From: Actinacidiphila yanglinensis
GTDB lineage: Bacteria; Actinomycetota; Actinomycetes; Streptomycetales; Streptomycetaceae
Reading direction: 5' to 3'
Assembly (NCBI RefSeq): GCF_900107965.1
Contig: NZ_FNVU01000012.1
Coordinates: 124,001 to 188,000 of the forward strand
Length of the DNA: 64,000 nucleotides
Positions 15,817-30,000 of the stretch are shown here, one piece after another. Each line of letters starts with the position of its first letter. Position 1 is the first letter of the stretch. A program made the position numbers and the translations under genes. The notes under the pieces were generated by a model. That model was not told where the DNA came from, did no database searches, and saw nothing but the letters and a program-made list of their open reading frames with translations.

Positions 15817-15921
15817 TCAGGCGTCAGGGTCGACCTCGGGGTGCGTGAACCGCACCGGCCTGCCCAGTGACCGGGCGTAGGCGATTTCGGCCCGGGTGCT
15901 GTCTCCGATGTAGCCGCCGAC
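15817..15921 (-). pseudogene. C-terminal tail of a DUF4406/deoxyribosyltransferase-like protein (separated half)
   Basis: The last ~34 codons read VGGYIGDSTRAEIAYARSLG then RPVRFTHPE, the end of the family whose N-terminal part is at 18115-18546. In that family this segment directly follows an LVLVV strand. Here it is preceded by unrelated sequence (a frame that can start at 16059). Both pieces lie on the minus strand in the right order, so this looks like the displaced 3' end of one gene split by the island at 15922-18258. Confidence 0.6.
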
Positions 15922-16066
15922 CAAAGCGCCTGAGTTCGCGAATACTGAGCACTCGGCGCCCCGAACCTGGGCGTTCGTCGCGTGTCGGTTGGCGATCATC
16001 GACGTTCTTTCATCCAGCAGGCGGGGCACATGTCGCGGCCATCGCGGGTCCAGTGCCATTGGCTTG

Positions 16067-16246
16067 TCATTTATCCCGTCGGCGGGGCTTGGTGCCCTTC
16101 TTGTGATGGGCGGGTCCGGTGTACGCCTCGCCGGGCGAGGACCCGTCCCACGTCGTGACGGTTCCCGAACGGCTGTTTCTTGAACCGAGTGGGCGGCCGG
16201 GGCCAGGTCGGGAGGGTTTGGGCGCACGCGCTGGCGTCGGGATCCG
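16067..16246 (-). pseudogene. Transposase C-terminal remnant
   Basis: The frame ends with PTPARAPKPSRPGPGRPLGS followed by a basic tail including HHKKGTKPRRRDK. From memory, this Pro/Arg-rich tail is typical of a Streptomyces transposase family (NF041680-type). No upstream DDE domain is present; the piece is cut at about 16246. Confidence 0.45.
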
Positions 16247-16434
16247 AGGTGGAGGTTTCTGAACCCGGTTCAGGCGGGGGTCGTGGTCACCCGCGCAGTG
16301 TGCCGCCCGGCCTCGGCGGTCCGGCCGGTTCACCGGCGGTAGCAGTGGCTTGACCGCTCTGTTCTGGTGAGCTGAAACAACCAGCCTGGCCCTGCTGGCC
16401 GGGGCCAGAGCACTATCACCGCTGATAGCGGCCT

Positions 16435-16452
16435 GGCCCTACCCGCAGGGCC
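16435..16452. terminator. Short G/C hairpin in the island
   Basis: GGCCCT (16435-16440) pairs with AGGGCC (16447-16452) around a six-base loop. Two more small inverted repeats lie just upstream: CCGCT/AGCGG around 16419-16431 and CTGGCCC/GGGCCAG around 16385-16408. It may end transcription entering from the left or belong to the remnant element. No T-tract. Confidence 0.3.
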
Positions 16453-16473
16453 GGACCTGGGAGACCAGGGATC

Positions 16474-16696
16474 ATGACCGACCGTCGACCGCTCTCGCCT
16501 CTCGCCGCCCGCCTTCTCCGAGCCCGCTTCCGACGCTCCCGTACCCGCCCAGGCGGGTGGGCGCCGGCTGATGCCGGTCGAGCAGGGCGCCGACTTCCGC
16601 CAGCCGCCCGGCGAGACCGAGCCCGCACCCGCCCCGGCCCGACGTCCGCTCGCCCCCGGCGGCCTCACCTTCTCAGACCCGGACCGCCATATCTGA
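16474..16696 (+). pseudogene. Frameshifted small ORF
   Basis: From ATG 16474 the frame encodes a helical, basic start (RPLSPLAARLLRARF). It then loses protein-like character, while the next frame reads DAPVPAQAGGRRLMPVEQGA, continues as an acidic/Pro-rich sequence and stops at 16694-16696. Joining the two frames gives a plausible ~70-residue protein, suggesting a single-base indel. Family not identified. Confidence 0.3.
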
Positions 16697-16871
16697 GCGC
16701 TATTACCACGCGCCACGTCCAGGACCAGCTCACACCTAGCCCTACCGCCCGGTGTGCCAGCGCCTCCACCTGGACAGTGGTCGGAGCCGGCCCGGCTCCC
16801 GCCTCGGATACCGTGTTCCTCTACGGGGTGCCATAACGGATGTGACGCCCCCCACCGGAGGTAGTCAGCGT

Positions 16872-17261
16872 ATGAGTTCAAAGCGCAGCAAGAATCCAGC
16901 CCTGCCCGTACTCGACGACGCATTCCGACTCGCGTCGGTCAAGGACGCCGAAGAGTCCACCCGTGACTTGGCCGCGCGGCTGGCCACCACCGAGCTGCGC
17001 CGCGTTTCCCACCCGGGCCGGGTCACCTGGGAGCCCACCGATCAGGCCGAGCCCGTACCGGTCCCGCCGACCGTGGTCGACGGTGACGGGGACCTGTGGC
17101 TGCGGGACCGGGGCGCTGGCACCTGGACCATGCCCGAGTTCAACCCGAAGGAGTTCCCGGCCCGCTGTGGCGAGGTTCTGACGTGGAACGAGCTTGCCCG
17201 CGAGTTCGGCCCGCTTACCGCACTGGCCGACGACCGCCGCATCGGCGGCGGCCGGCGCTGA
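16872..17261 (+). CDS. Hypothetical protein in the mobile island
   Basis: 129 residues, no family recognised. GGAGGT at 16857-16862 stands nine bases before the ATG, so it is probably expressed. The N-terminal half is charged and helical (SVKDAEESTRDLAARLATTE). The C-terminal half contains a two-stranded motif VVDGDGDLWLRDRGAGTW followed by PARCGEVLTWNELAREFGPL, similar in style to small proteins on actinobacterial integrative elements. It is the only apparently intact gene in the island. Confidence 0.65.
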   Translation: MSSKRSKNPALPVLDDAFRLASVKDAEESTRDLAARLATTELRRVSHPGRVTWEPTDQAEPVPVPPTVVDGDGDLWLRDRGAGTWTMPEFNPKEFPARCGEVLTWNELAREFGPLTALADDRRIGGGRR

Positions 17262-17375
17262 CCGCGCAGCCTTCTGGGATGACCGCGCCCCTGAAGCGCC
17301 CGTTACGGGTAGCTGGGAGCTCCAGCTCACCGCCGAGCTCGACGATGGCGGCGCGTAGGTGAGCGTGGTGGTCGG

Positions 17376-18080
17376 TCACGATGTCTCCATGGTGCAGCCG
17401 GATACTTCGTCGCTGTCCGTGGGGTCGGGGTGGAAGAAGCGGGTGTAGTGGAGCCCGGTCTCCGGAGTGATGTTGAACACCGCGCACAGGTGCTGCGGGT
17501 CGCCGCCGGTGACGGCGGCCTCTTCGAGGATTCGGTCCTCGCGAAGTTGCTGGGCGGTGACCGGGAGGCCGCGCAGCAGAGGCTGCATCCAGCCGGTTGT
17601 GACCGGGGCCCGGGTGTGCGCGGTCTGCGAGCCGATGAACACCTGAGGGTTGCGGGTATGTGGCCAGCGCTGGCGCCGCGGGCCGATGAGGCCGGCCAGG
17701 CGACATGCGGTGTAGTTGCGGACGGTCGGCGCGTACTTCCGAGCCGTGTGCAGGTCGTCGCGCCGGTCAGCGAAGAGTCGGTCGACGTCCGCGGCCGGCG
17801 GCTGCGCCTTGCGCACCTTCGTCAGCGTGGCCAGTCGGCGCTGGTGCTCGCCGACGAACCGGTCGAGGTCGGTGGGAACCAGCTCCCAAAGCGGTCCGCC
17901 GAACCAACCTCGGACCTCCATCAGGGCATCCACGTCGCCGGAGATCGTCTCGTCGGCGAGTCCGGCCGCCGCCCGTGCGAGCACGAACTCCGACAGCAGG
18001 TCCTGCTCGAAGTCCGTGACGTCCTGCGGTGACTGCAGCAGCGGTCGAGGCCGGATCGGTGCAACGACTGCGAGCGACAT
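17376..18080 (-). pseudogene. Chimeric/deleted tyrosine recombinase
   Basis: 234 codons from ATG 18080. The first ~140 residues (DFEQDLLSEFVLARAAAGLADETISGDVDAL ... ARKYAPTVRNYTACRLAGLIG) match the N-terminal core-binding region of an actinobacterial phage integrase. The protein then jumps to RWPHTRNPQVFIGSQTAHTRAPV and PLLRGLPVTAQQLREDRILEEAAVTGGDPQHL, which resembles the C-terminal tail of a different recombinase group. The R-H-x-x-R-Y catalytic core that should lie between is absent. The frame is intact, so a truncated DNA-binding protein could be made, but recombination is not expected. Confidence 0.6.
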
Positions 18081-18114
18081 CCGCCCCCTCAACTCCCTGA
18101 AACCATAAGGAATC

Positions 18115-18546
18115 TCAGGCTGCTAGAAGAAGGCTCACAAATTCCGAGGTTCCCTCACTCTTCACCCGTAGAGGTGACAGGGACCCATCGATGCACAACG
18201 CAGGGCCACTGGGGAGGTGCCCACGGGCACCGTGTGCGGGGGAACTCGGGCGCACATTCACCACGAGCACGTCATCAGCGAGCCGGATCTTCGCCCGGTG
18301 CAGAGCGTCGAGTCGCACCTTCAGTGCCTCGGCCTCGCCAGGATCGGACCACAGCTCGTGTGGCGACTTCAGGTCACAGCCCGGTTTGACGACGATCCTT
18401 CCGGCTGTGGTCTCGCGCAGATCGGCCTCGTTCATCTCGGTCATGAAGCGGGTGGGGCCGCAGATCACGACGATGCGCGGGAGGCTCAGCAGCTTCTTGG
18501 CGTCGGCGAGTTTTTCCTCGGGGGTGAGCAGGTGCGGGGATGACAC
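18115..18546 (-). pseudogene. N-terminal half of a DUF4406/deoxyribosyltransferase-like protein
   Basis: 143 codons from GTG 18546, with AGGAGG five bases upstream. Residues ~22-96 are well conserved for the family: RIVVICGPTRFMTEMNEADL, GRIVVKPGCDLKSPHELWSD, LDALHRAKIRLADDVLVV. After residue ~96, where the family has the GGYIG-S-T-R-E-IAYAR segment, the frame continues with unrelated Pro/Ser-rich sequence to a stop at 18115. The missing end is at 15817-15921. Without the GYIG/Glu region the nucleoside-binding site would be incomplete. Confidence 0.65.
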
Positions 18547-18855: not shown

Positions 18856-21800
18856 TCAGTGAGGCGGGTCGGAGGACCTCGCGAGGGCTTCCAGGCCGAC
18901 CAGGTCGTCCGGTGCCGCGTCCGGCACCTCCTCGTCGAAGCCCGCCAGCCGGCTGCGGAGGGCGACGGCCGCCACCGCCACGATGGCGGCGCCGAGGAGC
19001 AGGTAGAGGAAGCCGATGCCGCGGCCCGGGCCGGTGCCGATCAGCCGGCCGACCGTGGGTGCCAGGGCGCCGCCGTGCCGCAGCAGCGGTTCCAGCAGCC
19101 GGCCGCCGTACGGCGCGACGAGCCCGAAGCCGATCGGCAGCGTGGACCACGCGACCAGCGTGTTGAGCGCCAGGACCCGGCCATGGAACCGCTGCGGCAC
19201 CTTGACCTGCACGATGGTGTTGTAGATGCCGTTGAGCAGGGTGAGACACAGCCCCATCCCGAAGACGCCCGCGCCGATCACCGGCAGGCTCGGCCGCACC
19301 CCGGTCGCCTCGGCGCACACCGCCAGCGCGAGCGCGCACAGGAGCACCGCCCGCATGCGGCGGCGCCGGGGCCCGCCCCAGGCGACCATTACGGTGGCAC
19401 CCAGCACCACCCCGAGCCCGCCGACGAACGACATCACGCCCAGGTCGCCGATCGTGCCGAAGGCCAGCACCAGCGGCTGCGTCATCAGGAACAGCGGCGA
19501 CAGGAACACGTTGAGGCAGGCGAAGAACACCAGCATCCGGCGGAAGCCCGGATGCCGCCAGGAGTACGCGAACCCGGCCCGGATCTCGGTGAGGACCGGC
19601 TCTCGGCGCCGCCAGGCCATCGTCCGGGGGAACCGCACCGCCAGCGTCACCAGGACGGCGCACGCGTACGTGGCGACGTCGATCGCGAGGACACCCCGGA
19701 GCCCGATCGCCGCCATCAGGCCGGCGGCGGCCAGCGGGCCGGCCAATTGCGCGCTGCCACCGGCGAGTTGGACGATCCCGTTGGCGTGGCCCAGGAAGCG
19801 CTTCGGCACGAGTTGCGGCACGGCGGAGGTGTACGCGACCCGCTGGAAGGTGAGCGCGGCGGACAGCAGCGCCAGCGCGGGATAGAGGTGCCAGACCGCC
19901 AGGTGGCCGGTCCACAGCAGCACCCCGAGCAGCAACTGCACGCATCCAGCGGCGCCGTCGCCCCACAGCATCACCGCCCGCCGCGACGAGCGGTCCACGA
20001 CGGCGCCGGCCAGCGGCGCGACGAGCAGGCCCGGCACCAGGCCGACCACCGCGAAGAGGGCGAACTGGGCGAGGGACCCGGTGGTCCGGTAGATCCACAG
20101 CGGCAGCGCGAACTGGGTCAGCACCGACCCGGTGAGCGAGACCAACTGCCCCCCGGCGACCGCGAGGAAGCGCCGCATGCTCGGCCGGGGACCTGGGGGC
20201 GCGACGGGCGTCGCCGACCGGGAGGTGGCATGCAGCCGCCAGTGCTCGCCGGACGGAGCTGGTCCGTCCGCGGCGGCGGCCGGCCGCGTGCGCGCGAGGA
20301 CCGCCGGGTGCACGCGGGTGAGGACGGCGGCCAGCTCCTCGGCGCGGTGCCGCGGGAAGAAGTGGCCCGCCTCGTCCAGCACGACGACGCCGGCGCTGTC
20401 GGACAGCAGATGCCACTCGCGGAAGCGCTCCTGGTAGTACTCGGTCGCCGGGTCGCGGTCGCCGGCCACCGCGACGACCGGGGCGCGCAACCGCGGGCCG
20501 GGATCGTCGAACAGGGCGGTGAAGTACTCCTCGGCCGCCTCGGTGTCCAGCCGCATGGTGCGGACGATCCGCCGGGCCTGCTCGGGCCCGATGTCGTGCA
20601 GGTCGACGCCCATCGAGGTCAGCCAGTTGGCGTAGGTGCGGTCGCCGCGCAGCGCGTCCAGCCGCGGCAGGCGGGCGAACCGGCGGCCACCGGGCCGCCC
20701 GAAGGGGAAGGCCGCACCGAGGTGGACGGCGTCGACGGTCCTTCCGGCCGCCTCCAGCAGGCGGGCGATCTCCACCGCCAGCGCCGTCCCGATACCGGAG
20801 TGGCCGTACAGCACCAGCGGGCCCCGTACCGTCGCCAGGATCTCGGCGGTGCACCGGGCGGCGACCTCCGCGAACGGCTGCCGCTCCTCGGCGAGTCCGG
20901 CGTCGTGGCCCGGGATCGCCACCGACCACAGCGCACAGTCCGCGGGCAGGGCGTCCGCCAGCGGCTGGTACACGATGGCGCCGGCGCCGCCGTAGGGCAC
21001 GCAGACGAAGCTGGTGGCGACCGCGCGCGGCGGGGTGAGGCGGTGCAGCAGCCCGCGCTCGGCGACCGCCGGGCCGGCGGTGAACGCGGCCAGCCAGCGC
21101 ACCGTCGGGTGCTGGAAGAGGTCCATGACCGCGACCGGCCGGCCCAGCGCCCGGCCGGTACGGGTCGCCGCCCGCACCGCGAGCAGGGAGTGCCCGCCCA
21201 GGTCGAAGAAGTCGTCGTCCACGCCCAGCTGTTCGGCGTCGAGCAGCTCGGCCCACACGGCGGCGATGGCCCGTTCGGTGTCGGTGCGCGGCGGCGTGCC
21301 GGGCCCGGACCGGACCGGCTGCGGGGCCGGCAGGCGGGAGCGGTCCACCTTGCCGCTGACGGTGAGCGGCAGCTCGGCCAGGTGCACCACTGCGGTGGGG
21401 ACCAGGTGGGCGGGCAGCAACTCCGCGACGTGAGACCGCAGTTCGGCCGGGCCGGGCGGGTCGCCGGCTGCCACCACGTAGGCGGCGAGGGACTCCCCGT
21501 CGGTGGTGACCGTCGCCGCGGTCACGGCCGGGTGGGTGAGCAGCGCCGCCTCGACCTCGCCGGGCTCGACCCGGAACCCGCGCACCTTGAACTGGTCGTC
21601 GACCCGGCCGAGGAACTCCAGCCGCCCGTCGGGGCGCCACCGCACCCGGTCGCCCGTGCGGTACAGGCGGGCGCCCGGCGGACCCCACGGGTCCGCGGTG
21701 AACCGACCGGCGGTCAGCTCAGGGCGCCCGAGGTAGCCGCGCGCCACTCCCGCGCCGCCGACCGCGAGTTCACCGGGCGCGCCGGGCGGCGCGAGCCCGC

Positions 21801-24800
21801 CGTCCTCGTCCAGCACCCACGCCGTCGTCGCGGCGATCGGCCGGCCGATGTGCACGTCGTCGTGCAACTCGCCCGCGGTGGCCACGATCGTGGTCTCCGT
21901 CGGGCCGTAGGTGTTCAGCAGCCGGACCGCGCCGCCGAAGTGCGCGCGCCAACCGGCCACCGCGGCGGCCCGCACCTGCTCGCCGCCGATCACCACCAGC
22001 CGCAGCCCGTCCGGCCACGGCACCTCGTCGGCCATGTCGGCGAGCCGGTGGAAGTACGCCGTCGGCAGGTCGAGGACGGTGATGTCCCGCCGTGCCGCGA
22101 GCAGTTCGGGCAGCCGCGTTCCGCCGCCGGGCAGCAGCACCACGGCGGCGCCGGCCGCGAGGGCCGGGTAGATCTCCTCGGCGTGCGTGTCGAAGCTCAC
22201 CGACGCGAACTGCACCACCCGGTCGGCGCCGGTGAGTTCGTAGGCGTCCCGCATCCACACCACCCGCGCGGCGAGGCTGCCGTGCTCGACCACCACGCCC
22301 TTCGGGGTGCCCGTCGAGCCGGAGGTGTAGATGACGTAGGCGGCGTCGCCCGGCGTGACCTCGACCGCCGGAGCGGGGCCGTCGGCCGGCCGGTAGCGCT
22401 CGTCCACCACGAGCGCGGCCGCACTGTCCGCGACGAGGTGCGCCCTGCGGGCCGGCGGGAGTTCCGGGTCGAGGGGCAGGTAGGCGGCCCCGGCCCGCCA
22501 CACCGCGAGCAGCGCCACGACCGCGTCGACGGACCTGGGCAGGCAGACGCCGACGACGCTGCCGCGGCGCACCCCGCCGCGGCGCAGCGCGGCGGCCAAC
22601 ATTCCTGCGCGGCGGTCGAGTTCGGCGTAGCTGATCTCCGTGCCGCCGCAGATCAGCGCGGTCGCGTCCGGGTGGGCGTGCACCGACGCGGCGATCAGGG
22701 CGGGGACCGTGGTGGCCGGCGCGGGCCCGCCGGTGCCGGCGAGCGCGGCCAGGTGGGTGTGGTCGCCCGCGGTGAGCACCGGCAGTGCCGCCAGTGCGGC
22801 CGAGGGCGTCGCGGCGATCCCGGCCAGCAGCGTCACGAACCGGTCGGCGAGCGCCGCCGCGCTGCGGTCGGAGATCCGGCCGGTGTCGTGGGCGAACGCG
22901 AGCAGCAGCCCCTCCGGACGGCGCCAGGCCTCGAGGAGCAGGTCGAACTTCGCCTGCCGGTAGCCGGAGTCGAACGGTTCCAGGCGCAGGTCACCGAAGG
23001 TGGCCTGGTCGGTGTCGTCCTGGCTGTGCAGGATGGCCATCGTCCGGAAGAGCGGGGTCCGCCCGACGTCCCGCCGCACGCCCAGCTCCGTCAGCAACTC
23101 CTCGAACGGCAACTGCTGATGGGCCATGGCCTCCAGCACGGTGTCGCGGGTGCGGTGCAGGAGATCGGTGAAGGTGTCCCCGGCGCGCAGGGTCGCGCGC
23201 AGCACCACGGTGTTGCTGAGGTAGCCGATGACCGGCTCGGCCTCGACCCGGTCGCGGCCCGCCGTCGCCGAGCCGACCAGGAGGTCGCGTTGGCCGGTGT
23301 GCCGGGCCAGGAGCAGCTGGTAGGCCGCCAGCAGCGTCATGAACGGGGTGACGCCCGCGTCCCGGGACACCCGGTCGAGCGCGTCGGCGAGGTCGGCGGG
23401 GACCTGCCGGGTCTGGAACGCGCCGGGCAGGTCCGGGCCGGAGTTCCCGCCGCGGGGGCCGGAGCCGGATTCCTCGCCGCGGGGGCCCGGGCCGGAGCCC
23501 GAGCCCGTGCCGCCGTCGCGGGGCAGGTCGAGCTCGGGCGGGTCGGCGAGCTGCTCCCTCCAGTACGCCAGCGCCGCGCCGTTGTCGCGCTCGCGCTGCC
23601 ACAGCGCGATGTCGCCGTGCTGCACGGGCAGCGGCGGCAGCAGGTCACCGCGGTAGAGGGCGGACAGCTCGGCCAGCAGGGTGGTCAGCGACCAGCCGTC
23701 GGCGACGATGTGGTCGAGCACCACGCACAGCACGTGCTCCTGCGCGCCGGTGCGGATCAGGGTGAACCGCACCGGCGGCGCGCCGGCCAGGTCGAGCGCG
23801 GCGTTCACCCGCTCCGCGACCAGTTGCCGCGCCTCTTCCGTACCGGCCGCCACCAGGTGTTCCACCCGCACCGGCGACGGGGGCTCCACGACGGCGACCG
23901 GGCGCCCGTCGTCGTCGGGGAAGCGGGTGCGCAGCGCCTCGTGCCGGGACACCAGCCCAGTGCAGGCGTTCGTCAAGGCGGTGGTGTCCAGCGGGCCGAG
24001 CAACCGCCGGACCAGGTACATCGTGTACGACGCGTCGTCCGGGTCGAGGCGGTGCAGGAACCACAGCCGCTCCTGGGCGGGGGAGAGCGGCGGCGGACGG
24101 TCCCCCCGCGGCCGCGGCCCCCCGGCGTCGTCGGTGTGCCCGCCGAGCGCGGAGGCGAGCGCGGACACCGTCGGATGCGTGAACAGGGTGCGCACCGGGA
24201 TCGCGCCGAGCCGGGCGGCGACCCGGGTGGCGAGCAGCGAGTGGCCGCCGAGCGCGAAGAAGTCGTCGTCCGCGCCCACCGCCTCCAGGTCCAGGACCTC
24301 CGCGAACACCGCCGCGACCCGCCGTTCGGCATCGGTGCGCGGCGGTCCGCCGCGCGAGCGCACCCGCCCGGGGGCCGGCAGGGCCCTGCGGTCCACCTTG
24401 CCGTTGGGGGTGAGCGGCAACGCGTCCAGCTCGCGCACGGTGTCCGGCACGAGGTAGCCGGGCAGCACCGTCGACAGGCGGGCGAGCACGCCGTCCGCGG
24501 ATCCCACGACGTAGGCGACCAGCCGCTCCTCGCGCACCGCCACCACGGCGCGGCGGACGGAGGGCAGCGCCTCCAGCGCGGCCTCGATCTCCCCGGGCTC
24601 CACCCGGTGGCCGCGCACCTTGACCTGATCGTCGAGGCGGCCGAGGTACTCCAGCTCGCCGTCGGGACGCCGCCGGACGCGGTCGCCGGTGCGGTACCAG
24701 CGGGTGCCGTCGGCGTCGCGGACGAACCGCTCCGCGGTCAGCTCGGGCCGGGCGTGGTAGCCGTTCGCCAGGCCGGCGCCGCCGATCAGCAACTCGCCGT

Positions 24801-27093
24801 CCACGACGGTCAGCCGCGTGTCGAGCAGCGGCCGGCCGAGGGAGACGTGCACGGGGTCGTGCGGCACCTCCCACGCGGTGGACCAGATCGTGGTCTCCGT
24901 CGGCCCGTACACGTTGAGCAGGCGGGCGACCCGGGCGCGCAACTCCGTGGCCAGCGCCAGCGGGAGGGCCTCGCCGCCGGCGAGCGCGGTGAGCGCGGCC
25001 GCCTCGACGCCGCCGTCCAGCAGATTGCGCCATCCGGACGGGGTCGCCTGCACGTGGGTGACCCCGCGCGCGGCCACCAGCCGGGCGAGTGCGCCGCCGT
25101 CGCGGACGGTCGCGCCGTCGGCCACCACCACCCGGCCGCCGTTGACCAGCGGCAGGAACAGCTCCAGCGCCGAGATGTCGAACGACAGCGACGTCGCGGC
25201 GAGCCACACGTCCCGCGGACCGGTGTCCAGCAACCCGCCCAGCGCGGCCAGCAGATGGGACAGCGCGCGGTGCGGGACCACCACCCCCTTGGGCCGGCCG
25301 GAGGAGCCGGAGGTGTAGATGAGGTAGGCGGCGTCCCCGGCGTCCCCGGCGTCCCCGGCGTCCGCGGAACCCCGGCTCCCGCCCAGCCGCCGCAGCCAGT
25401 CGTCGGTGAGCTCGGCGCGGGCGCCGGAGTCCTCCCGCACGTAGGTGATCCGCGCGTCCGGGTAGTCGGGGTCGATCGGCAGGTACGCCGCGCCGGCCAG
25501 CATCACCCCCAGCAGGGCGCCCACCGCCTGCGCGGACCGGCTCAGCCGGACCGCGACCACGTCGCCGGTGCCGACGCCCTCGGCCAGCAGCCCCGCCGCC
25601 ACCCGCTCGGCGAGCGCGACCAGCCCGGCGTAGCTGATCCGGGTGTCCCCGCACTCCACCGCGATCGCGTCCGGCCGCCGCCGCGCCTGCCGCCGTACGA
25701 GGTCGGCGACGGTGGCGTCCGGCACGGTCACCGACGCCGCCCCCGGCTCCGCCGCCACCTCGGGGGTGCTCGCCGGGGACGGCCACAGCGCCGACAGCCG
25801 GGCCTGCGGGTCGGCGACCACCGCGGCGAGCAGACGGGTGAACCACCGGGCCAGGTGCTCGGCCGTGCCGGCGTCGAACAGGTCGGTGCGATAGGTCAGT
25901 TCGCAGTGGTACCCGTCCGGCTGCGGCCACATCTCCAGCGACAGGTCCACCTTGGCGCGGTGGCATCCGTGCGGGAAGGGCGTCGCCACCGTACCGGCCA
26001 GGCCGACGTCGTCGCCGTAGCCGCCCGCGGTGGTGTGCAGCGCGAACACCGCCTGGTAGAGCGGGTTCCGGCTCAGGTCGCGCGGCAGGTCCAGGGCGTC
26101 GACGAGGTGTTCCAGCGGCGCCGGGCCGTGGGTGAAGGCGCCCAGCGCCACCTTCCGTACCCGGCGGACCAGTTCGGAGAAGGCGGGGTCCCCGCCCGGC
26201 TCCGGCCGCAGCACCAGGATGCCGGCCAGCGGCCCGATCATCGGCTCGAGTTCCACCCGGTCACGGGCGGCGACCGGCGATCCGAGGCAGAAGTCCGGCT
26301 GCCCGCCGAGGTGGTTGAGCAGCGTGTGGCACACCGCGAACAGCACCATGAACGGCGTCGCCCGGCACTGCCGCGCCAGCGCCTTGATCCCGGCCGCCGC
26401 CTGCTGATCGAGGCGGAAGGCGTGCACGCCGGCCGCGCTGTCCGCCGCGGCCGGGCGGGGCCGGTCGGTGGGCAGGTCCAGCGCGGGCACCCCGTCGAGC
26501 TGCTCCGTCCAGTACGCCAGGTGCTCGGTGGCGGCGGTCGCGTGCGCCACCTCGGCGTACTGCAACGGGAGTTCGGGCAGCTCCGGCGGCTCGCCGCGAA
26601 GCCGGGCCGCATAGTGTGCGGCGAGTTCACGCCGCCACACGTACAGCGACCAGCCGTCGGCGACCATGTGGTGCAGCACCAGGCACAGGACGTGGTCCTC
26701 GTCGCCCAGCCGGATCAGCGCCACCCGCAGCGGCGGCGCGGCGGCCAGGTCGAACGGCGCGTTCGTCCGCACGGCGACCGCCTCGCGGGCGTGTTCCTCG
26801 CGGGTTTCGGGCGGCGCACCGGTCAGGTCGACGCGGTCGATCGGCACCGGCGCGGGCGGCAGTACCTCCTGGCACGGCTGCCCGTCGGGCGCGGGGAAGC
26901 GGGTGCGCAGGATCTCGTGCCGGGCCACCACCGCGTCGACGGCCGCGCCCAGGGCAGCGGCGTCCAGCGGCCCGCGCAACCGGTCGACCAGGAACATGTG
27001 GTAGGCGGGGTCGCCCGGGGTCAGCTGGTCGAGGAACCACATGCGGCGCTGTGCAGGCGAGGCCGCCACGCGCGCGTCGGCGGGGGTCAGCAC
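18856..27093 (-). CDS. Two-module NRPS with thioesterase and fused MFS exporter (C-A-T-C-A-T-TE-MFS)
   Basis: 2745 residues. C1 has HHMVADGW (~141). A1 has IYTSGSSGRPKG (~598) and T1 GGHSLL (~949). C2 has DHIVADGW (~1129; first His is Asp). A2 has IYTSGSTGTPKG (~1594) and T2 GGHSLL (~1966). The TE has YGHSGIG (~2098) with later GDRDP and AGHFF. From ~2305 (MRRFLAVAGGQLVSLTGS) to the end is a complete MFS transporter with about 12 helices. Pocket residues read by eye: A1 D-I-L-Q-L-G-V-I-W-K (glycine-like), A2 D-T-E-D-V-G-T-I-V-K (acidic, suits a basic amino acid, possibly beta-lysine). GTG at 27093 overlaps the upstream module by seven bases. It should assemble, release and export a peptide. 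Confidence 0.9.
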   Translation of the reverse strand: MLTPADARVAASPAQRRMWFLDQLTPGDPAYHMFLVDRLRGPLDAAALGAAVDAVVARHEILRTRFPAPDGQPCQEVLPPAPVPIDRVDLTGAPPETREEHAREAVAVRTNAPFDLAAAPPLRVALIRLGDEDHVLCLVLHHMVADGWSLYVWRRELAAHYAARLRGEPPELPELPLQYAEVAHATAATEHLAYWTEQLDGVPALDLPTDRPRPAAADSAAGVHAFRLDQQAAAGIKALARQCRATPFMVLFAVCHTLLNHLGGQPDFCLGSPVAARDRVELEPMIGPLAGILVLRPEPGGDPAFSELVRRVRKVALGAFTHGPAPLEHLVDALDLPRDLSRNPLYQAVFALHTTAGGYGDDVGLAGTVATPFPHGCHRAKVDLSLEMWPQPDGYHCELTYRTDLFDAGTAEHLARWFTRLLAAVVADPQARLSALWPSPASTPEVAAEPGAASVTVPDATVADLVRRQARRRPDAIAVECGDTRISYAGLVALAERVAAGLLAEGVGTGDVVAVRLSRSAQAVGALLGVMLAGAAYLPIDPDYPDARITYVREDSGARAELTDDWLRRLGGSRGSADAGDAGDAGDAAYLIYTSGSSGRPKGVVVPHRALSHLLAALGGLLDTGPRDVWLAATSLSFDISALELFLPLVNGGRVVVADGATVRDGGALARLVAARGVTHVQATPSGWRNLLDGGVEAAALTALAGGEALPLALATELRARVARLLNVYGPTETTIWSTAWEVPHDPVHVSLGRPLLDTRLTVVDGELLIGGAGLANGYHARPELTAERFVRDADGTRWYRTGDRVRRRPDGELEYLGRLDDQVKVRGHRVEPGEIEAALEALPSVRRAVVAVREERLVAYVVGSADGVLARLSTVLPGYLVPDTVRELDALPLTPNGKVDRRALPAPGRVRSRGGPPRTDAERRVAAVFAEVLDLEAVGADDDFFALGGHSLLATRVAARLGAIPVRTLFTHPTVSALASALGGHTDDAGGPRPRGDRPPPLSPAQERLWFLHRLDPDDASYTMYLVRRLLGPLDTTALTNACTGLVSRHEALRTRFPDDDGRPVAVVEPPSPVRVEHLVAAGTEEARQLVAERVNAALDLAGAPPVRFTLIRTGAQEHVLCVVLDHIVADGWSLTTLLAELSALYRGDLLPPLPVQHGDIALWQRERDNGAALAYWREQLADPPELDLPRDGGTGSGSGPGPRGEESGSGPRGGNSGPDLPGAFQTRQVPADLADALDRVSRDAGVTPFMTLLAAYQLLLARHTGQRDLLVGSATAGRDRVEAEPVIGYLSNTVVLRATLRAGDTFTDLLHRTRDTVLEAMAHQQLPFEELLTELGVRRDVGRTPLFRTMAILHSQDDTDQATFGDLRLEPFDSGYRQAKFDLLLEAWRRPEGLLLAFAHDTGRISDRSAAALADRFVTLLAGIAATPSAALAALPVLTAGDHTHLAALAGTGGPAPATTVPALIAASVHAHPDATALICGGTEISYAELDRRAGMLAAALRRGGVRRGSVVGVCLPRSVDAVVALLAVWRAGAAYLPLDPELPPARRAHLVADSAAALVVDERYRPADGPAPAVEVTPGDAAYVIYTSGSTGTPKGVVVEHGSLAARVVWMRDAYELTGADRVVQFASVSFDTHAEEIYPALAAGAAVVLLPGGGTRLPELLAARRDITVLDLPTAYFHRLADMADEVPWPDGLRLVVIGGEQVRAAAVAGWRAHFGGAVRLLNTYGPTETTIVATAGELHDDVHIGRPIAATTAWVLDEDGGLAPPGAPGELAVGGAGVARGYLGRPELTAGRFTADPWGPPGARLYRTGDRVRWRPDGRLEFLGRVDDQFKVRGFRVEPGEVEAALLTHPAVTAATVTTDGESLAAYVVAAGDPPGPAELRSHVAELLPAHLVPTAVVHLAELPLTVSGKVDRSRLPAPQPVRSGPGTPPRTDTERAIAAVWAELLDAEQLGVDDDFFDLGGHSLLAVRAATRTGRALGRPVAVMDLFQHPTVRWLAAFTAGPAVAERGLLHRLTPPRAVATSFVCVPYGGAGAIVYQPLADALPADCALWSVAIPGHDAGLAEERQPFAEVAARCTAEILATVRGPLVLYGHSGIGTALAVEIARLLEAAGRTVDAVHLGAAFPFGRPGGRRFARLPRLDALRGDRTYANWLTSMGVDLHDIGPEQARRIVRTMRLDTEAAEEYFTALFDDPGPRLRAPVVAVAGDRDPATEYYQERFREWHLLSDSAGVVVLDEAGHFFPRHRAEELAAVLTRVHPAVLARTRPAAAADGPAPSGEHWRLHATSRSATPVAPPGPRPSMRRFLAVAGGQLVSLTGSVLTQFALPLWIYRTTGSLAQFALFAVVGLVPGLLVAPLAGAVVDRSSRRAVMLWGDGAAGCVQLLLGVLLWTGHLAVWHLYPALALLSAALTFQRVAYTSAVPQLVPKRFLGHANGIVQLAGGSAQLAGPLAAAGLMAAIGLRGVLAIDVATYACAVLVTLAVRFPRTMAWRRREPVLTEIRAGFAYSWRHPGFRRMLVFFACLNVFLSPLFLMTQPLVLAFGTIGDLGVMSFVGGLGVVLGATVMVAWGGPRRRRMRAVLLCALALAVCAEATGVRPSLPVIGAGVFGMGLCLTLLNGIYNTIVQVKVPQRFHGRVLALNTLVAWSTLPIGFGLVAPYGGRLLEPLLRHGGALAPTVGRLIGTGPGRGIGFLYLLLGAAIVAVAAVALRSRLAGFDEEVPDAAPDDLVGLEALARSSDPPH
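23413..23520. repeat. Low-complexity Gly/Pro/Ser-rich insert in the C2 domain
   Basis: Imperfect copies of CCGCGGGGGCC and GGGCCGGAG-type words encode a Gly/Ser/Pro/Arg linker (SGSGPGPRGEE, SGSGPRGGN). It lies between ELDLPRDG and FQTRQVPADL, inside condensation domain 2. This is usually a short surface loop, so the insert is probably a slippage expansion. Confidence 0.55.
25333..25368. repeat. 9-bp tandem repeat (GTCCCCGGC, three exact copies plus one degenerate)
   Basis: Three exact GTCCCCGGC units (25333-25359) and a degenerate fourth encode a D-A-G-D-A-G-D run just before the ATP-binding IYTSGSSG of A1. Copy-number change would keep frame and alter this loop by three residues per unit. 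Confidence 0.7.
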
Positions 27094-30000
27094 GCCGCGG
27101 ACCCGCCCAGCTTCTCCACCACCGCGGCGATCTCGGCGAGGGTCGGCGCGTCGTAGAAGTGGTCCAGCGGCACGTCGACGCCGAGCCGGTCCCGGATGCG
27201 GGCGGCGATCTGCGCGATCACCAGGGAGTGGCCGCCGAGGTCGAACAGGTCGTCGTCGGGCCCGACGGCCTCCACCCGCAGGACCTCGCACCAGATGTCG
27301 CCGATGCGGGTGAGCGTCGTGCCGGCGCCGTCCTCCGGGTCCCCGGGTGTGTCGGTCGAAGTTCCGGCCGAGGTTCCTGCCGAGGGGGCGGGTGTGTCCG
27401 CCGCCGGGTGCAGCGGCGGCGGCTCCGGCAGCGCATCCCGGTCGAGCTTGCCGTTGGGCGTGGTCGGCCATTCCGACACGGCCACGAACCGGGCCGGGAG
27501 CATGGGTGCGGGCAGCGTCCGCGCCAACTGCCCGCGCAGGTCGGCGGGGTCAGCCGTGCCCTCGACGTAGCCGACGAGCACGTCGCCGCGCAACACCACC
27601 GCGGCGGCCCGCACGTCCGGGAGTTCGGCCAGCCGTGCTTCGACCTCGCCCAGCTCGACGCGGTGCCCGCGCACCTTCACCTGGGTGTCGGTCCGCCCGA
27701 CGAACTCCAACTCCCCGTCCCGCAGGCGCACCAGGTCACCGGTCCGGTAGCGTCGCCCGCCCTGGCCGGTGGGGAACCGGCGCGCGGTGAGGTCGTCGTC
27801 GCCGAGGTAGCCGGTGGCCAGACCGAGGCCGCCGATCCACAACTCGCCGACCACGCCCTCGGGTACGGGCGAGCCGTCCTCGGCGTGCACCGAGACGGTG
27901 GTGTTGGCGAGCGGCCGGCCGATGGGGACGGTGAACGGTGCGGTGGCGGCGGGTTCTGCCGCGGACCGTTCTTCCGTGGACGGTTCGGCGGGGGAACCTT
28001 CGTCCGTGGACGGTTCATCCGCGGGCGGGCCCGCGGGTACCTCCCAGCAGGTGGACCAGATCGTGGTCTCGGTCGGCCCGTACATGTTGACCAACCGGCC
28101 CAGCCGCGGGCGCAGTTCCCGCGCGAGCGCCGGCGTCAGCGTCTCTCCGCCGGTCAGCGCCGTCACCCCCGGCCACCGCACGTCCGCGGCCAGCAGCAGC
28201 CGCCACCCGGTGGGGGTCGCCTGCACGTGGGTCACGCCCTCGCGGGCGACCTGAGCGGCCACCGCCGCGCCGTCCCGCCCCGCGCCGTCGCCGGCCAGCA
28301 CCACCCGGCCCCCGTTCACCAGCGGGAGGAACAGCTCCAGCCCGGCGATGTCGAACGACAGCGGGGTCAGCGCCAGCCAGCGGTCCTCGGCGGACGAGCC
28401 GACCACGTCTCCGACGGCGCCCACGACGTTGACGAGCGCGCGGTGGGGCACCGCGACGCCCTTGGGCCGACCGGTGGAGCCGGACGTGTGGATGACGTAG
28501 GCGAGCCCGTCGGGGGTGGCACGCGAGGCGGGCTCGGGTGCCTGCGACCACGCGTCCTCGACGTGCCACACCGGCACCCGGTCGCCGGCCCCCGGCCCGT
28601 CCCCGTCCTCGCCGCCGTCCTCGCCCTCGGTCACCACGAGCACCGCCCCGCTGTCCCGCACCACGAACGACCGCCGCTCCAGCGGGTGTTCGGGGTCGAG
28701 CGGCACGTACGCGGCTCCGGCCCGCCATGCGCCCAGCACCGCGGCCACCAGCGCGGGACCGCGCCGCAGGCTCAGTGCGACCAGGGCGCCCGGGGCCACA
28801 CCGGCGCCGCGCAGCCCGGCGGCGATCCGCCCGGCCCACGCGTCGAGTTCCGCGTAGCTCAGCCGCGTGCCGTCCGGCCCCACCACCGCGACCGCGTCGG
28901 GCGCCTTCGCCGCGCGGGCCGCGACCAGGTCCGGCACGGTGACGTCCGGCACCGGCCGGACCGGCCCCCGGAGCGCCCCGGCGGTGCCGGTCCCGCCCAG
29001 CGGCGCGTCGGGGCGGCCGTGGACCTCCGCCAGCAGCGCCGCGAGGTCCGCCGCGATCCGCGTGGCCTCGGCGGCGCCGAACCTCGCGGTCCGGTAGTGG
29101 AGTCGGGCGACCGGCCCGCCGGGGCCGTCGACCACCTGGAGGTGCACGAGGGCGCGCACCGCGTGCGGGGGCAGCGCCCAGTCGACGGTCGAGGCCAGCC
29201 CGTCGAAGACCGGATCGCCCGCGCGCTTGCGGTAGCTCACCGACGTGGGTGCCACGGACGGCCGCGGCGCGAGTCCCGGCACGGCCCGGCCGAGCGGCAC
29301 CGCGCGGAACGGGTAGGTCGCCCGGAGCCGGGCCCGCGTCGCCGCGGCGGTCTCCCGGAACGTGGCATGCCGCCCGACACCGACCGGGAGTTCGTTCACG
29401 AACGGCCCGACCGCGGACCGGGTCGCGCCGGTGCGCGTGCCGAGGTCGACGCCGACCACCGGCGCGCCGTCGCCGTAGCGGTGCAGCAGCGCGAACCAGC
29501 CGGCCAGCAGCAGTTCGAACGTCGTGACGCCGAGGGCCGCCGCGGCGTCCGGGAGCCCGCCGGGGAGGCCGACGGCCACGGTGCCGGCCGCCGGGTCGTC
29601 GACGCCGGGGCGCAGACCGGGCAGGACCGGCTCGGTGCGGCCGTGCCGGTGCCCGGCCCAGAACTCCCGTGCCGCGCTCAGCTCCGACGCGGCGCGGTCG
29701 TCCGGCCCGGCCGCGAGCGGCAGCGACTCGGTGTCGAGGGCGCCCCGGTACGCGGCGGCCAGGTCGTGCACCAGCACATCCTTCGACGTGCCGTCGAACA
29801 CGACGTGGTGCGCGACGACGATCAGCGAGACCCCGCCCGGCCGCCGGACGAGCGTGAACCGGGCGAGCGGGCCCGCCGCGAGGTCGAACGGCCGCAGCGA
29901 CTCCGCGCGCAGGACGTCGTCGGGGTCCCCGTCCGCCTCGGCCAGGGACGGCGGGACCGGGGCGGGGACCAGGTACGGTTCCCCGTCGCGCTCCACCACC

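Follow-up and report, generated by a model that had tools for sequence, protein, structure and literature searches.

The split gene and the island between its halves

The window is a 64,000-nucleotide stretch of Actinacidiphila yanglinensis (contig NZ_FNVU01000012.1, positions 124,001 to 188,000). Between positions 15,817 and 18,546, it contains two parts of a putative nucleoside-2-deoxyribosyltransferase-like gene, which are separated by an island with recombinase remnants. The features are listed below.

18263..18546, minus strand: 5' part of the nucleoside-2-deoxyribosyltransferase-like gene (94 codons plus 2 nt), with 95% identity to the intact paralogue of the same genome; junction placed by alignment
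15923..18262, minus strand: degraded inserted element, 2,340 bp; its orientation, taken from the recombinase genes, is that of the target gene; an end-to-end relative lies at the homologous site of pSTRVI01, and the ends are common to other copies
18242..18262, minus strand: recA-side terminus, GGTGAA spacer + TGT + GCGCCCGAGTTC; TGTGAATGTGCGCCYGAGTTC in most other copies
17676..18080, minus strand: remnant of the tyrosine recombinase recA (region of residues 1-181, with an internal deletion and without the catalytic half); tblastn with the S. alanosinicus recA, E 5e-63
17379..17696, minus strand: remnant of recB, C-terminal residues 472-577; tblastn E 1e-41
16872..17261, plus strand: cargo ORF of 129 aa; related proteins are mostly 93-98% identical, with a match in 50 of 395 family genomes
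16002..16430, no strand assigned: nested segment with an IS transposase tail, absent from the pSTRVI01, G011 and G028 copies, as judged from contiguity in these relatives
15923..15937, plus strand: distal terminus, AAA + GCGCCTGAGTTC, an inverted repeat of the recA-side terminus
15920..15923, no strand assigned: ACCA, repeated at 18260-18263; native triplet ACC plus an element base, not a target duplication
15817..15922, minus strand: 3' part of the nucleoside-2-deoxyribosyltransferase-like gene, with the stop; about 89-92% identity to intact relatives, running on without a break into the 3' flank conserved among them, and joined in frame to the 5' part

When 18546-18263 is joined to 15922-15817, the result is an open frame of 390 nt (129 aa and a stop), which matches the homologues. 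A protein query spanning both halves matched the window twice (residues 2-98 and 98-131). This query also identified an intact paralogue in the strain's own genome (C43:40790-41173, 95% identity), along with full-length genes (86-91%) in six congeners (G033, G008, G027, G032, G002, and G011). DNA alignment showed that both window pieces abut at one base of the intact copies; the 3' flank is conserved to about 15754, and the 5' flank is conserved too. The split gene is presumably inactive, with the intact paralogue present elsewhere in the genome.

An earlier, sequence-only reading had described one gene in two halves, in the right order and strand, around an island of about 2.3 kb, and had explained the reciprocal ends by insertion. 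The intact copies and the in-frame junction bear this out, and the alignment across an uninterrupted homologue that it proposed is provided by the own-genome and congener copies, in which one gene covers the junction and both flanks are continuous. Its breakpoints (18258 and 15921) lie within 5 bp of the real limits, 18263 and 15922. The expected content of integrase remnants, a transposase, and one small gene corresponds to the integrase remnants, the transposase tail, and the 129-aa ORF. Its suggestion of direct repeats at the breakpoints held only in part: ACCA occurs at both, but it is not a target-site duplication, and no other repeat was found there.

The target gene product matched no Pfam family above cut-off. 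There was a weak match to PHROG 355 (E 0.007), and Foldseek on a model with pLDDT 90 gave NDT and DNPH1 as top matches, also weak (E 0.003-0.01, TM ~0.55). Relatives of the target gene (67-89%) were found in 24 viral contigs, and homologues in about 100 plasmid records. The insertion point lies just ahead of a conserved G-D/G-Y-I-G-x-S-T-x-x-E motif. The gene recurs in phage-like contigs (L194-L217), where a near-invariant LADEVLVVGDYIGDSTRAEI motif contains the insertion site. Adjoining the split gene, a very long minus-strand frame (18856-27471) appears by eye to encode a peptide synthetase of several domains that ends in a transporter-like part at the C-terminus; the equally long frame opposite is probably a GC artefact.

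The Pfam and NCBIfam search of the island gave no match besides a weak one to the C-terminus of the NF041680 transposase (about 16169-16249, minus strand, E 0.0034), within the 16070-16438 frame. The 129-aa cargo ORF has no Pfam, NCBIfam or PHROG match; the 50 family genomes with a match belong to four genera, and the ORF lies mostly away from the element. That this ORF is a defined mobile unit in its own right was considered and is unsupported, as the shared boundaries differ between loci. Element pieces also occur at other loci in congeners.

A relative of the insert lies on the plasmid pSTRVI01 (NC_015951, S. violaceusniger Tu 4113). This element is 95% identical, spans both ends, and has the 129-aa cargo gene as well; on either side of it stands one half of a homologous gene, split at the homologous codon. 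Compared with the window, the pSTRVI01 copy has a host gene of only 44-57% identity, lacks the nested IS segment, and keeps more of recA. Measured against it, the window copy lacks two stretches, of about 906 and about 117 bp; it also carries some 430 additional bp (16002-16430), in which the transposase tail lies. There is no further close recA in the genome of the window strain. The window copy is dead and no longer mobile by itself.

Recurrence at one codon and the junctions

The search for element ends covered 395 genomes of the family, plasmid sequences, and 84,980 species genomes. Distinct distal ends fall in the target gene in 14 of 17 cases: the window, pSTRVI01, the NBC_01455 plasmid, the S. 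goshikiensis NBC_00909 plasmid, G247, G198, S. cellulosae (the same as G213), S. pseudovenezuelae (the same as G321, at a contig end), TRM68367, S. blattellae, S. lincolnensis L4, CB02980, S. alanosinicus, and A1136. In two further copies, G257 and the NBC_00053 plasmid, the gene contains just the recA-side end. The insertions at this codon are spread over many Streptomyces chromosomes and plasmids. Since the same junctions recur in other copies of the host gene, the split is not a chance event. The other three distal ends (the shared G011/G028 locus, YIM 130001, and CC208A) lie outside the gene, so either the target choice is less than strict or those ends were relocated by rearrangement. At the shared locus, an element fragment stands beside a gyrB/parE-like gene (L014, G011:C46, 6997-8280; L041 in G028), and G011 also has an intact target gene, some 1.4 kb from the element fragment. 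Of the 55 matches in a pattern scan of genome contigs, about 45 look like chance hits in other taxa. The element search in viral contigs found only an unrelated phage gene and no recA relatives.

The identities of host gene and element are discordant among the copies. Between the window and pSTRVI01, the 3' host part is 57% identical and the element end 97%; on the 5' side, the values are 44% and 94%. S. alanosinicus and TRM68367 likewise share 55% in the host and 96% in the element. The reverse is found between pSTRVI01 and S. alanosinicus, with 92% and 98% in the host and 65% and 68% in the element. The 5' host parts of pSTRVI01, S. alanosinicus, and NBC_00053 are 97-98% identical, whereas the elements there share just 57-68%. 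This discordance shows that the gene was struck repeatedly; as judged from these comparisons, several element subtypes entered several host-gene lineages at one codon. Some pairs (among the window, G247, and CB02980) could share descent, so the insertion events are fewer than the copies.

Intact V-type genes read CTCGT-NGT-CGGCGAC at the site (GGT, AGT, TGT, or CGT), and P-type genes read GTCAA-CCC-nGGCGG. The element is positioned between ..CTCGT and NGTnGGCGRYTACATC in the V type, or between ..GTCAA and CCCnGGCGG in the P type. Interrupted genes have ..GTCAA or CTCGT, then TGTGAATGTGCGCCYGAGTTC .. GAACTCAGGCGCTTT, then the native triplet. The junctions of pSTRVI01 are GTCAA/TGTGAATG...GCGCTTT/CCCTGGCGGG, and its intact relatives have GTCAACCCTGGCGGG. 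Comparison with the near-identical intact genes of NZ_CP129127 and NZ_CP109493 showed that no target base was duplicated or lost in pSTRVI01. The terminal inverted repeat is modest, being reached by 14 of 4000 random pairs.

On the recA side, pSTRVI01, G257, G198, NBC_00053, S. alanosinicus, and S. lincolnensis carry the triplet TGT, and the window carries GGT; TGTGAA is constant on this side in six of seven copies, with GGTGAA in the window. If this triplet were native, six TGT in seven copies would have a chance of about 2e-7 (native frequency 2/35, copies assumed independent). TGT is therefore very unlikely to be the native triplet, which again argues that no target base was duplicated or lost. 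The ACCA repeat of the window is the native ACC plus the first A of the element, matched across the insert by chance or by spacer exchange. As the first spacer base is G in the window and T in the six others, a short spacer exchange is indistinguishable from a point mutation. A 4-bp target duplication was dropped, because other copies insert without duplication or loss. Donor-derived triplets at the distal end, by a Tn554-like coupling, were also dropped, because intact genes show that the triplets are native.

Complete relatives and the origin of the island

S. alanosinicus and S. lincolnensis L4 have complete relatives of 5.2-5.7 kb, inserted into the target gene at that same codon. The S. 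alanosinicus element (L145, 1350-7080) contains recA (353 aa; Phage_integrase, E 8e-25), an HTH protein of 106 aa (HTH_26, E 7e-12), and recB (577 aa), followed by an inositol-monophosphatase-like gene and a GNAT gene as cargo. The S. lincolnensis L4 element has recA at 98%, the HTH gene, and recB; its cargo, named by inspection alone, comprises TetR-like and methyltransferase-like genes, and its target gene has an additional internal deletion. The cargo is exchangeable and differs between the complete copies. The catalytic motif RHRY is kept in recA. In recB, Arg-I and His are lost, the second Arg (Arg-II) and Tyr are invariant, and there are zinc-ribbon-like cysteines; because of the missing Arg-I and His, the role of recB is putative. 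No DDE transposase was seen in the complete relatives. Modules of recA, HTH gene, and recB are widespread on actinobacterial plasmids, such as pNOCA01 (L180), the NBC_00842 plasmid (L181), FB24 plasmid 2 (L183), and pNF2 (L184). In some of these plasmids, recB is annotated with a start far downstream of the open frame encoding its cysteine-rich N-terminus.

The island is very probably a decayed site-specific tyrosine-recombinase element related to Tn554, of a kind that was inserted repeatedly at one codon. Intact members consist of recA with RHRY, a small HTH protein, the long and partly degenerate partner recB, variable cargo, and 12-bp inverted termini. The three proteins might form a circle, ..GGCGCTTT-TGTGAA-TGTGCGCC.., and would insert it by recombination at the codons of the conserved glycine loop in the target gene. 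The insertion in the window is an old event, followed by truncation of both recombinases and insertion of an IS fragment.

Other explanations were compared with this one. A single ancient insertion that travelled with the gene, by descent or by spread, and was homogenised later, is the least improbable of them and still very unlikely. It would suit the window, L099, and L144, which are similar in both host (89-91%) and element (95-100%), but not the near-identical 5' hosts of pSTRVI01, S. alanosinicus, and NBC_00053 beside diverged elements, nor the reverse pattern between the window and pSTRVI01; moreover, each lineage has intact, uninterrupted genes. Slightly less probable again is an ordinary DDE insertion sequence that made a 4-bp ACCA target duplication, owned the transposase tail (16070-16333), and then decayed. 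The ACCA at both ends, the short inverted repeats, and the NF041680 tail inside the island might be read in this way. However, the transposase segment is missing from other copies that hold both neighbouring segments, pSTRVI01 has no duplication, the complete relatives carry tyrosine recombinases with no DDE transposase seen, and repeated use of a single codon is not IS-like.

A spliced or programmed insert, such as an intein, a self-splicing intron, or a developmentally excised element restoring the gene, has still less probability. The insert lies in a conserved motif, its removal restores the frame exactly, and its recombinase genes point in the direction of the host gene, all of which such an insert might show. 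Against it, the window copy lacks the catalytic half of recA and most of recB, the cargo varies among the copies, and there is no Rfam intron match; an intron or other RNA feature was rejected as a candidate for lack of any Rfam match of note. The most improbable explanation is that two independent truncated paralogues face each other across mobile debris, which the sequence-only reading had named as the alternative to its own. A second, intact copy in the same genome might be taken to favour it, but the pieces fit together exactly, with the frame kept, both flanks are as in single genes, and the identical split with the same insert ends is present elsewhere. It is excluded by the relatives, which hold a single uninterrupted gene.

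A broader, tentative proposal can be added. These copies may represent a Streptomyces branch of Tn554-related elements, which uses as attB an NDT-like gene circulating on phages and plasmids, could ride this gene between hosts, and has a polarity opposite to that of Tn554 and the SEs, with the element spacer fixed on the recA side and the native core at the distal end.

Relationship to known elements

Taken alone, the window copy is an ordinary dead insertion, and its value lies in the family that it exposes. In Actinobacteria, Tn554-like elements have been recognised chiefly by their genes. The present family also shows its termini, target gene, empty sites, complete copies, and exchangeable cargo, which makes the site and the mechanism directly testable. 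As a caution, the short target gene may be annotated as two fragments. No report of this gene as an insertion site was found in the open-access papers searched, and the novelty is provisional. Within the open-access literature, the Streptomyces branch is apparently undescribed as to its target gene, termini, HTH gene, and spacer polarity.

Tn554-related recombinase pairs of Actinobacteria, including that of pNOCA01, were grouped as Famint36/41 by Van Houdt et al. 2012 (PMC3414803). The pNOCA01 pair (NC_008697) shares 45.9% with recA (E 8e-88) and 30% with recB (E 2e-38). As in the Famint36/41 pairs, a short recombinase (about 350 aa) and a long one are adjacent and co-oriented, mostly on actinobacterial plasmids (PMC3414803). 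The long partner has 611-828 aa in the Famint36/41 class (PMC3414803), and recB here has 577 aa. The sections of that paper on these families give no termini, attB, or third gene, whereas the termini and the target gene are defined here; an HTH gene lies between the recombinases both here and in pNOCA01, FB24 plasmid 2, pNF2, and NBC_00842.

The staphylococcal elements Tn554, Tn553, and Tn552-II are site-specific, make no target duplication, and encode two recombinases, one ordinary and one large, along with a small additional protein, TnpC in the Tn554 family (PMC10214605, PMC12486829). The present elements resemble them in the absence of target-site duplication (pSTRVI01) and in the preferred single site (14 of 17 distal ends). 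Imperfect inverted termini, a 6-bp spacer, few target sites, and the use of tyrosine recombinases only are shared with the SEs, strand-biased circularizing integrative elements (PMC10214605). However, the genes of SEs are intA, tfp, intB, and srap, and reports of SEs are confined to Gammaproteobacteria (PMC10214605), whereas the complete copies here have recA, the HTH gene, and recB. SEs and Tn554-like elements place a 6-7-bp core, in the Tn554 family that of the donor, at their distal end (Idola et al. 2023, PMC10214605; Wan et al. 2025, PMC12486829). Unlike in Tn554 and the SEs, the distal end here abuts native target bases, and the nearly constant TGTGAA stays on the recA side.
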